A stretch of DNA of 60,468 bases, from contig NZ_QGDU01000022.1 of the NCBI RefSeq assembly GCF_003149045.1, positions 1-60,468 on the forward strand, read 5' to 3'. Positions 9,854-11,432 of this stretch are shown here, in pieces. How positions within the stretch are numbered: the first letter of the stretch is position 1; each line of letters starts with the position of its first letter. The translations under genes and the position numbers were made by a program. Source of the stretch: Fibrobacter sp. UWR4. Lineage in GTDB: Bacteria > Fibrobacterota > Fibrobacteria > Fibrobacterales > Fibrobacteraceae. A model generated the notes under the pieces. It had not been told where the DNA came from and did no database searches. It saw only the letters and a program-made list of their open reading frames with translations.

Positions 9854-10165
9854 TTAGCCCTGGAGCTTACGTTCCTGTGCAGCGCACAGATCCTTCAGCT
9901 TTGCAATTTCTGCATCCTGTGCGGAAACCTTGGCGTTCAGTTCTTCGCAGCGTGCGGCGTAAGTCTGTTCGGATTCAATGCGTTCACCAAGCTGCTTGCT
10001 GAAGCAGTCCACGGAGCTACGGAGGGAATCAATGGTTGCGTTTGCCTGGGCAAGATTTTCGTCGGCGTTAGCTGCCTTGCAACGGCTGCTGCAGACCTTC
10101 TTGCAGATCAGGGCGGAAGCGACTGCACCCACTGCCATACCAACTACAAAATTGGAAATCTTCAT
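9854..10165 (-). CDS. Small YtxH-like membrane protein with coiled coil
   Basis: This 103-residue protein starts MKISNFVVGMAVGAVASALI, a single glycine/alanine-rich membrane segment. A Cys/Lys patch (CKKVCSSRCK) follows, then a long heptad-patterned helix (about residues 35-103, with AQANATIDSLRSSVDCFSKQ and ELNAKVSAQDAEIAKLKD). The layout fits YtxH-like proteins of unknown function. A strong AAAGGAG site precedes the ATG. The first 25 residues nearly match those of the neighbour at 10183-10353, so the two are paralogues. They probably form one transcript, because only 17 bases separate them. Confidence 0.75.
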   Translation of the reverse strand: MKISNFVVGMAVGAVASALICKKVCSSRCKAANADENLAQANATIDSLRSSVDCFSKQLGERIESEQTYAARCEELNAKVSAQDAEIAKLKDLCAAQERKLQG

Positions 10166-10182: not shown

Positions 10183-10353
10183 TTAGATGTTTTCAGGAAC
10201 GGATTCGTCTTCGGAAGACTTTTCTTCGGAGGATTCGTCCTGGGAATCAATGTCGCAATCATCGTCGCAGTCGCATTCATTCAGCTTCTTGGAAACAAAC
10301 AAAGCAGCAACAGCGCCAACAGCCAAACCGGTGATAAAACTAGACAATTTCAT
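10183..10353 (-). CDS. Small YtxH-like membrane protein with acidic tail
   Basis: This 56-residue protein begins MKLSSFITGLAVGAVAALFV, parallel to its neighbour's MKISNFVVGMAVGAVASALI. It ends in a very acidic tail (DCDDDCDIDSQDESSEEKSS) in place of the neighbour's coiled coil. I chose the ATG at 10353 because GAGGAG stands just upstream. The frame stays open further up (to 10416), but that extension reads as noise and lacks a ribosome site. Cys residues alternate with Asp near positions 28-34, which could bind metal, though that is speculation. Function unknown. Confidence 0.7.
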   Translation of the reverse strand: MKLSSFITGLAVGAVAALFVSKKLNECDCDDDCDIDSQDESSEEKSSEDESVPENI

Positions 10354-10660
10354 GGAAAACTCCTCTAAAATGAAACATTTCCCGTATAATATCACAATAA
10401 AAGTCCCAAAAGTCAAGCAAAAATATGGGAAACGTCCCTAAAAGTGCCTTTTTTCAAGGAAACTAGTGCAAATTTTCACAAAACACAAAATTCATACTAC
10501 GATTCAGGCTATTTTCAGCACGAATGAGACCCAATGCTAGTACGAATCGACATATTTCATTTTTTCCGTACTACAAGTACCCCATAAAAAGCCAAAAACA
10601 TAGTACAAATACACCATTTCTCGAACATTCGTACCAGAAAACCCCCAAAAAACCCCTCCC
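10354..10660. other. AT-rich intergenic region with recurring GTAC-centred motifs
   Basis: No gene is seen here. The stretch from 10495 to 10635 repeats short related words: TACTACGATTC (10495), CAGCACGAATG (10516), TAGTACGAATC (10538), CCGTACTAC (10566), AAGTACCCC (10575), TAGTACAAAT (10601) and TTCGTACCAG (10628). Several are about 21-28 bases apart. They may be protein-binding sites or remnants of a decayed tandem repeat; I cannot tell which. Confidence 0.35.
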
Positions 10661-10731
10661 CCTTGCAGTTCAAACGCCACCCTAGCCGATTACGAAACTT
10701 CCAGACGAAGTATTCTGCAGGCTAGCATGGG

Positions 10732-10839
10732 GGACTGGTGCGTAGGGCGAGAGTCGCGGCAAAGTTCACTTTGCCATGACCGAGCCCAGCATCCTGGCGC
10801 TTGCGCCGTCCAGAGGAGAACTGAGGCAACATCCCCATA
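10732..10839. repeat. Long repeat module, copy 1
   Basis: This module of about 108 bases starts GGACTGGTGCGTAGGGCGAG. It contains the perfect hairpin GGCAAAG-TTCA-CTTTGCC and a second one around GGCGC-TT-GCGCC. It differs from copy 2 (11009-11118) at only about four positions. Confidence 0.8.
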
Positions 10840-11008
10840 AACCACTTGCAAGGGGGAAGTCCTGACGTATCGCTAGCCGACACGTTCTCTTCTAACGAAA
10901 TCATCCACAGGCTAGCTGGGGCGGGAGTCCTAAATGCAAACCTGAAATGAACATCCCGAGCAACCAAGTGGCGGAGTCCTTACCCGCATACGTAGCCACT
11001 TGCAAGGA

Positions 11009-11118
11009 GGACTGGTGCGTAGGGCGAGAGTCGCGGCAAAGTTCACTTTGCCATGACCGAGCCCAGCATCCTGACGCTTGCGCCGTCCAGAGGGGGAACT
11101 GAGGCAACATCCCGATAA
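11009..11118. repeat. Long repeat module, copy 2
   Basis: This is the second copy of the module at 10732-10839, in the same orientation. Differences by eye are one substitution inside the second hairpin (GGCGC to GACGC, which weakens the pair), a one-base length change in the AGAGGGGGAAC word and one substitution near the end. Confidence 0.8.
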
Positions 11119-11307
11119 ATCTCTAGCCGAGAACGTTCCAATCGGGATGAATACACCAGCAGGCTAGCATGGGGGAGTCCAGAGATGGACCTGAGTTCTT
11201 CCCCTTGCTACACCCTAGCCGAACACGAAACTTCCAGACGGAGTATTCAGCAGGCTAGCATGGGGGAGTCCAGAGGGGGAACAGAGTTCCCCCTCTGCAT
11301 CTTTAAC

Positions 11308-11340
11308 AAAAAACCCCAGATCTTTCGATCTGGGGCTTTT
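11308..11340 (-). terminator. Terminator of tRNA-Ser
   Basis: A perfect 9-bp stem, CCCCAGATC with loop GAAA on the minus strand, is followed by six T residues. It begins four bases beyond the tRNA 3' end. Confidence 0.85.
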
Positions 11341-11343
11341 CAG

Positions 11344-11432
11344 CGGGAAGAGCGAGATTCGAACTCGCGATAGGATTAAGTCCTATACGTCCTTAGCAGG
11401 GACGCGCCTTCGGCCAGCTCGGCCATCTTCCC
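11344..11432 (-). tRNA. tRNA-Ser (anticodon GCU)
   Basis: The minus strand gives an 89-base serine-type tRNA. The acceptor stem GGGAAGA pairs with TCTTCCC. The anticodon loop CTGCTAA sits in the GTCC/GGAC stem and carries anticodon GCU. A long variable arm characteristic of tRNA-Ser (GTATAGGACTTAATCCTAT) is present, as is the T loop GTTCGAATC. CCA is not encoded. It reads AGC and AGU codons. Confidence 0.95.

Follow-up and report, generated by a model that had tools for sequence, protein, structure and literature searches.

The window analysed here, a 60,468-nucleotide stretch of the Fibrobacter sp. UWR4 genome (contig NZ_QGDU01000022.1, positions 1 to 60,468), contains a 650-bp intergenic array at 10657–11306, between the gene for tRNA-Ser(GCT) and a small minus-strand gene. 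With the tRNA gene on the minus strand (11343–11432), the array is located 3´ of this gene, past its terminator, as a preliminary description of the region had placed it; the extent of 10681–11296 given there is slightly short on the left, where the array reaches to 10657. Three kinds of unit make up the array, namely B (CTAGCCG...AGGCTAG), C (a G-rich hairpin), and A (a double-hairpin module), arranged as follows.

10646–10656, plus strand: left copy of the flanking direct repeat CAAAAAACCCC, of which the window has only two copies (0.04 expected)
10657–11306, no strand: array body, enclosed by two 11-bp direct repeats
10682–10725, plus strand: B unit 1, CTAGCC...GGCTAG, 44 nt
10722–10849, plus strand: segmental duplication, copy 1 (families D1 and D5; spacing 277–278 bp)
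10735–10807, plus strand: 73-bp insertion 1 (module A and second hairpin), which divides a B-C unit at GGGGGA^GTCC
10739–10792, plus strand: module A core copy 1, a 54-nt covarying imperfect hairpin (model R1, 79.7 bits, E 4e-21, own genome)
10796–10807, plus strand: second hairpin of the A element, copy 1 (GGCGCTTGCGCC), from the fold
10873–10915, plus strand: B unit 2, 43 nt
10999–11127, plus strand: segmental duplication, copy 2 (families D1 and D5)
11012–11084, plus strand: 73-bp A insertion 2, placed within its unit as insertion 1 is, from sequence comparison
11016–11069, plus strand: module A core copy 2 (model R1)
11123–11167, plus strand: B unit 3, 45 nt
11215–11258, plus strand: B unit 4, 44 nt
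11271–11297, plus strand: C hairpin closing the array (inverted repeat I3), with perfect 12-bp arms at 11271–11282 and 11286–11297
11307–11317, plus strand: right copy of the flanking direct repeat, corresponding to the distal arm and T-run of the tRNA-Ser terminator
11309–11340, minus strand: terminator-like hairpin of tRNA-Ser (inverted repeat I2), conserved in congeners
11343–11432, minus strand: tRNA-Ser(GCT), with the array in its 3´ flank (ARAGORN and Rfam)

Several features of this layout had been recognized before and are borne out here. No credible gene lies inside the array, where only mechanically called ORFs of 62–81 aa were found, and a perfect hairpin closes it. The two-hairpin module is indeed duplicated, with 96% identity over 95 nt between 10722–10816 and 10999–11093, and the duplication runs on to 10849 and 11127. 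The distances between successive B starts are approximately 190, 250, and 92 bp, and other modules intervene, so the array is not a regular repeat/spacer array of the CRISPR kind. Most array units fold better than their shuffles (z −2.9 to −3.8), the exception being the B3 stretch (z −0.3), as folded with its outer stem cut. An 11-bp match such as the one enclosing the array was attained in 14 of 5000 shuffles of the array flanks. At gathering score, Rfam 15 reports only tRNA and LSU rRNA, both in the window and at seven loci from other phyla. A decayed insertion sequence or rRNA fragment as the source of the array is unsupported.

The motif CTAGCCG-N-AGGCTAG occurs exactly four times in the window (0.00 expected by chance). 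The four units had been described as 44–45 bases long, each with an inner hairpin; their number stands, the second is a base shorter at 43 nt, and the inner hairpin is not a constant feature, being only about 3 bp in B2 and absent from the related units L016 and L022. The A to G change noted between B1 and B4 does keep the pair, turning A-U into G-U. The outer stem is identical in all eight aligned units, and an invariant CTAGCC/GGCTAG stem shows no covariation and thus provides no evidence of structure. A structured RNA, one of the readings initially offered, was dropped for the B units on both counts and matches nothing in Rfam. The B unit model has seven matches in the own genome, one in G036, three in G011, and none in other genomes; a mobility of B units, for which the seven copies within one genome are the argument, would concern a lineage-limited element. 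Hairpins resembling C are dispersed in the own genome, e.g. at L003, L009, and L013. At L009, L013, and L014 there are tandem arrays of hairpin units of about 150–165 bp, each ending in GGGGGAGTCCAGAGGGGG or similar, which seem to be akin to the window's B-C units.

The relation between A and its surroundings can be read from the array itself. The uninterrupted form of the split unit, GGGGGAGTCC, is present at 11171 and 11262. B4 runs directly into GGGGGAGTCCAGAGG, whereas in B1 GGGGGA is followed by 73 additional bases, comprising A and the second hairpin, and then by GTCCAGAGG; the A element thus sits within a B-C unit and splits it. The A core and the second small hairpin together span 10739–10807 and 11016–11084. 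Since the second copy has an identical join and the 128 bp of surrounding sequence recur 277–278 bp away, a single insertion was later duplicated with its surroundings.

For a comparison between relatives, proposed earlier as a check, the tRNA-Ser locus was located in 58 of the 61 genomes of the genus, and an array is present at three of the 30 loci read, those of the own genome (G000), G036, and G011, with differing lengths and compositions. At the other loci read, the terminator is followed by unrelated intergenic sequence or directly by the next gene. The locus being empty in most of the congeners read, the array is a recent, lineage-limited accretion. The earlier suggestion of recombination sites collected beside a tRNA is in part right: it agrees with these empty loci, with the 11-bp flanking repeat, and with related elements that lie behind tRNAs elsewhere with a duplicated 3´ end. 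On the minus strand at 9854–10165 and 10183–10416, the window also encodes two adjacent small proteins with similar N-termini (MKxSxFxxGxAVGAVA...KK), and similar small proteins follow tRNA-Ser in several congeners (L157, L163, L166, L170, L171).

Module A is a different matter from B. An ungapped alignment of 24 copies has 91% standard pairs, with compensatory changes on both sides in 14 of the 19 pairs and a covariation of 0.328, compared to 0.089 for shuffled and at most 0.076 for slid alignments. The tip of the hairpin is almost wholly different among copies with pairing retained, and CGAGAGTCGCG and CATGACCGAG around it are nearly invariant. Stems kept in register in this way could also stem from palindrome correction during replication. 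A kink-turn in the internal loop, considered for its tandem GA bases, was dropped because the neighboring loop base varies. The covariance search, for which the absence of copies and of covariation had been named as evidence against the array, thus returned both copies and covariation for A, and for B only copies.

With the covariance model R1, copies were found in all 61 genomes of the genus, 4–89 in each (E 0.01) and 45 in the own genome; these genome-wide figures rest on searches of genomes some of which are incomplete. In a phylum-wide draw of 151 genomes, R1 was found in 67 of 67 members of the genus and in 10 other members of the family, and in none of the 57 Fibrobacterota genomes from outside the family. 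A scan of genome contigs for the exact core, with about one chance match estimated for the collection, lists matches under at least Oscillospiraceae, Clostridiales, Treponema, Spirochaetes, Peregrinibacteria, and Paceibacterota titles, where host range is as good as the titles and some contigs, e.g. Aeriscardovia (L369), are possibly mis-binned. The other-phylum matches have palindromic middles and unrelated flanks; one in Gammaproteobacteria is non-palindromic, apparently lies inside a gene, and looks like a chance match. Phage, plasmid, and IMG/VR collections contained no match, Rfam gave nothing relevant at curated or permissive thresholds, and a literature search with the core sequence returned unrelated papers only, mostly on eukaryotic genes. 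We read module A as part of a family of probably mobile hairpin elements that had no name so far and that extends from rumen bacteria to distant phyla.

The copies have a preferred position. A same-strand ORF end (at least 90 codons, called mechanically) is found within 150 nt upstream of 105 of 162 distinct A copies and at −12 to +20 relative to the hairpin start in 54; on the opposite side of the same 162 copies the corresponding numbers are 54 and 11. In some genes the TAA or TAG of TGCGTAA/TGCGTAG is the host stop codon itself. Exact direct repeats of at least 16 bp flank 24 of 118 copies from genome contigs versus 2 of 353 mismatched control pairs drawn from the same set of loci; about 80% of A copies are without a clear flanking duplication. 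The right repeat copy typically begins 22–38 nt past the core, just after the second hairpin, and no terminal inverted repeats were seen by eye in the duplication-bounded copies. Exact duplications vary from 12 to 87 bp in length and reach 37 codons when diverged, and one and the same element is found at three sites with three different duplications (78 bp at L302, 24 bp at L342, and 20 bp at L306). Duplications are also seen beside 23S rRNA (23 bp at L364) and of tRNA 3´ ends (18 bp at L317 and 21 bp at L385, the latter tRNA being read from the sequence rather than by a tRNA search). Neither A copy of the window has an individual duplication; the only one there flanks the array as a whole and is 11 bp long, in a C/A-rich flank.

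Of the 105 copies at gene ends, 21 have a second copy of the host gene's end immediately behind the second hairpin. Four genes, which from reading the proteins we take to be valS, a radical-SAM gene, prmA, and putP, possess two copies of their 3´ end, one continuous with the gene body and the other a remnant directly following the element. In G020, about 30% of the bases differ between the two valS tails, yet only 2 of 37 amino acids do, one of them at the junction. A nearly identical inserted 14-codon valS tail is common to four species, in which the preceding codons differ. The inserted tail matches the inserted alleles of other species, and the remnant and its flank match uninterrupted alleles; in G005, the remnant with its 3´ flank is 85% identical over 261 nt to the uninterrupted valS end of G010, from which it follows that the remnant represents the resident end and that it is the upstream tail which has arrived. 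In G080 the foreign recoded valS tail is present without an element (L103), which would be the outcome if the element had been lost through recombination between the two tails. For prmA, a perfect 40-bp duplication is found in G013 (L061, L295), and the prmA end of the own genome is uninterrupted; valS of the own genome has an A copy, after which 16 bp of the valS end are repeated. The 3´ end of valS is also a hot spot where larger inserts are found, carrying partial valS ends in repeated copies. At L130–L144 (G020, G028, G011, G062, G012, G033, G084, G016, G001, G066), the cargo between such ends includes zinc-ribbon proteins, A hairpins, and toxin-antitoxin-like pairs (RelB/YafQ-like, PIN-domain-like).

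Non-autonomous mobile hairpins had been among the first suggestions for the region, and for module A this is well supported by dispersed copies, covarying stems, flanking duplications, and empty sites. The array as a whole is probably a mosaic of such hairpins, accreted behind the tRNA-Ser terminator in a small lineage and grown by tandem duplication, the growth perhaps proceeding by unequal recombination. In the reading we prefer, an A element would insert by some activity of its host or surroundings or by replication-linked template switching, duplicating 12 to about 110 bp of its target, after which homologous recombination in the duplicated gene tails may carry inserted copies from one species to another. 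Such a spread would explain both the recoded tails common to several species and the recoded-tail alleles that have no element. The array is most likely a passenger that forms at most a strong hairpin barrier from tRNA-Ser to the next gene, and we would expect no role for it beyond that of a hairpin-rich spacer.

The exchange of gene tails has a known counterpart. Mobile ORFs that swap C-termini have been described from fungal mitochondria, in atp6 of Allomyces and in atp6, atp9, cox2, and nad3 of Glomus (PMC3630166). There, as here, a synonymously recoded foreign 3´ end is joined to the gene body and the resident end is left as a remnant (PMC3630166), and tail displacement of this kind was found at valS, the radical-SAM gene, prmA, and putP. 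The mitochondrial elements carry a homing-endonuclease gene, whereas A elements are about 85 nt, non-coding, and bacterial, and no homing endonuclease ORF was found in A inserts of about 85–160 nt. Mitochondria also harbor double-hairpin or repetitive hairpin-forming elements that consist of two adjacent hairpins and are short, non-coding, and mobile in distribution; they show some resemblance to A in these respects and differ from it in sequence and in the genomes they inhabit. Finally, the element in Peregrinibacteria follows a tRNA and is itself followed by a second copy of the last 18 nt of that tRNA; together with the similar case of 21 nt at L385, it recalls integrative elements at tRNA 3´ ends, from which the A-type element differs by having no integrase, a size of only about 155 nt, and an inconstant duplication length. 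One tentative possibility is that A represents a new mobile class, a non-coding double hairpin with a cross-phylum core that integrates at the 3´ ends of genes and tRNAs by some mechanism that duplicates tens of bp, and that spreads by swapping in recoded host tails in the manner of the fungal-mitochondrial homing elements.

Alternatively, module A could be a functional RNA of mRNA and tRNA 3´ ends, such as a terminator, a 3´ stabilizer, or a protein-binding site, with the array serving to process or insulate the tRNA-Ser transcript. The strong covariation, the conserved internal-loop bases, the G-U pairs, and an exact core common to several phyla are what such an RNA would look like, and A is very often located at a stop codon or directly behind one, with the TAA or TAG in some cases being part of it. 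Nevertheless, we consider this unlikely, since module A in the window is antisense to both neighbors, the array has no orthologous conservation at the tRNA locus, the family has no match in Rfam, and the long flanking duplications and gene-tail remnants indicate insertion.

It has also to be considered that homologous recombination, together with slippage of replication at hairpins (circles, template switching), alone accounts for the tail and flank duplications, the repeats not being transposed but hitch-hiking on gene-end conversion. The left tail copies are common to species, the remnants keep the resident 3´ flank, a recoded-tail allele without element exists (G080, L103), tandem duplication has occurred within the array, and no dedicated enzyme was found. 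This explanation seems to us decidedly improbable, however, given that the same element sits at three unrelated sites with unrelated duplications (L302, L342, L306) and that the occupation of tRNA, gene, and rRNA-spacer positions across different phyla requires a route to new sites.

Short bacterial intergenic repeats are mostly explained by transposases of the IS200/RAYT type, and the genomes carrying A copies were searched for mobilizing enzymes. Among 31 such genomes, some of them incomplete, Y1_Tnp (PF01797, IS200-type) is absent in 22 and reverse transcriptase (PF00078) in 23. The Y1 transposases present are IS200-type with their own ends, and an A hairpin lies beside one of the eight loci read, as a chance neighbor. 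A RAYT/IS200 mobilizer was rejected because Y1_Tnp is missing from most carrier genomes and is not bounded by A; a retroelement, or target-primed reverse transcription, was rejected because most carriers have no reverse transcriptase. Apart from host loci, no recurrent ORF family that could be an autonomous partner was found near A copies. The variable length of the duplications fits no single transposase and makes both a DDE transposase and an integrase less likely; nor does it fit a MITE of a DDE transposon, for which a target duplication of constant length would be expected.

REP palindromes have a terminal unpaired GTAG or CGTC tag (PMC3733652). The A elements are similar to REPs and BIMEs in being short intergenic palindromes, often behind genes, in mosaics or tandem clusters, with compensatory stem changes and no autonomy (PMC2817692, PMC3733652), and the extragenic mosaic is found here as well. 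They differ in being a 54-nt interrupted hairpin with a second hairpin, in far fewer copies, in long and variable flanking duplications, and in the absence of a RAYT from most host genomes. That the array is a BIME, made of REP palindromes mobilized by a REP-associated tyrosine transposase, is very improbable: its mosaic of short palindromes lies mostly behind genes, its stems vary with pairing kept as in REPs (PMC2817692, PMC3733652), and some A copies start with GTAG, but the GTA common at the base of A is followed by an A or G that pairs, and covaries, with column 49 in many copies rather than forming a fixed unpaired tag, other subfamilies begin with ATCG, CCCG, or TTAA, flanking duplications of up to 87 bp are unexpected, and the distribution of Y1 transposases does not fit. 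With the habit of REP/BIME elements yet neither terminal tag nor RAYT, and with a tail swap that involves no endonuclease gene, A is classed as a non-autonomous palindromic mobile repeat.

The A family stands out for an unusually wide host range, the lack of an evident enzyme, and long, variable target duplications, and it has repeatedly captured the 3´ ends of genes, including essential ones such as valS. If this is confirmed, tiny non-coding elements would exchange the tails of host genes between species, and a search for the mobilizing activity would become possible. Near-identical A elements are found at L317, L385, and L413, one of them in a Ca. Peregrinibacteria contig, and those at L305 and L364 are located just upstream of 23S rRNA. 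At L329, on a marine contig, the element apparently lies inside an open adenylation-domain-like gene, perhaps in frame. L311 and L314/L350, from termite-gut Oscillospiraceae and Treponema, have a longer element in common, in which the A core precedes several G+C-rich hairpins, with linker words that are similar as well.
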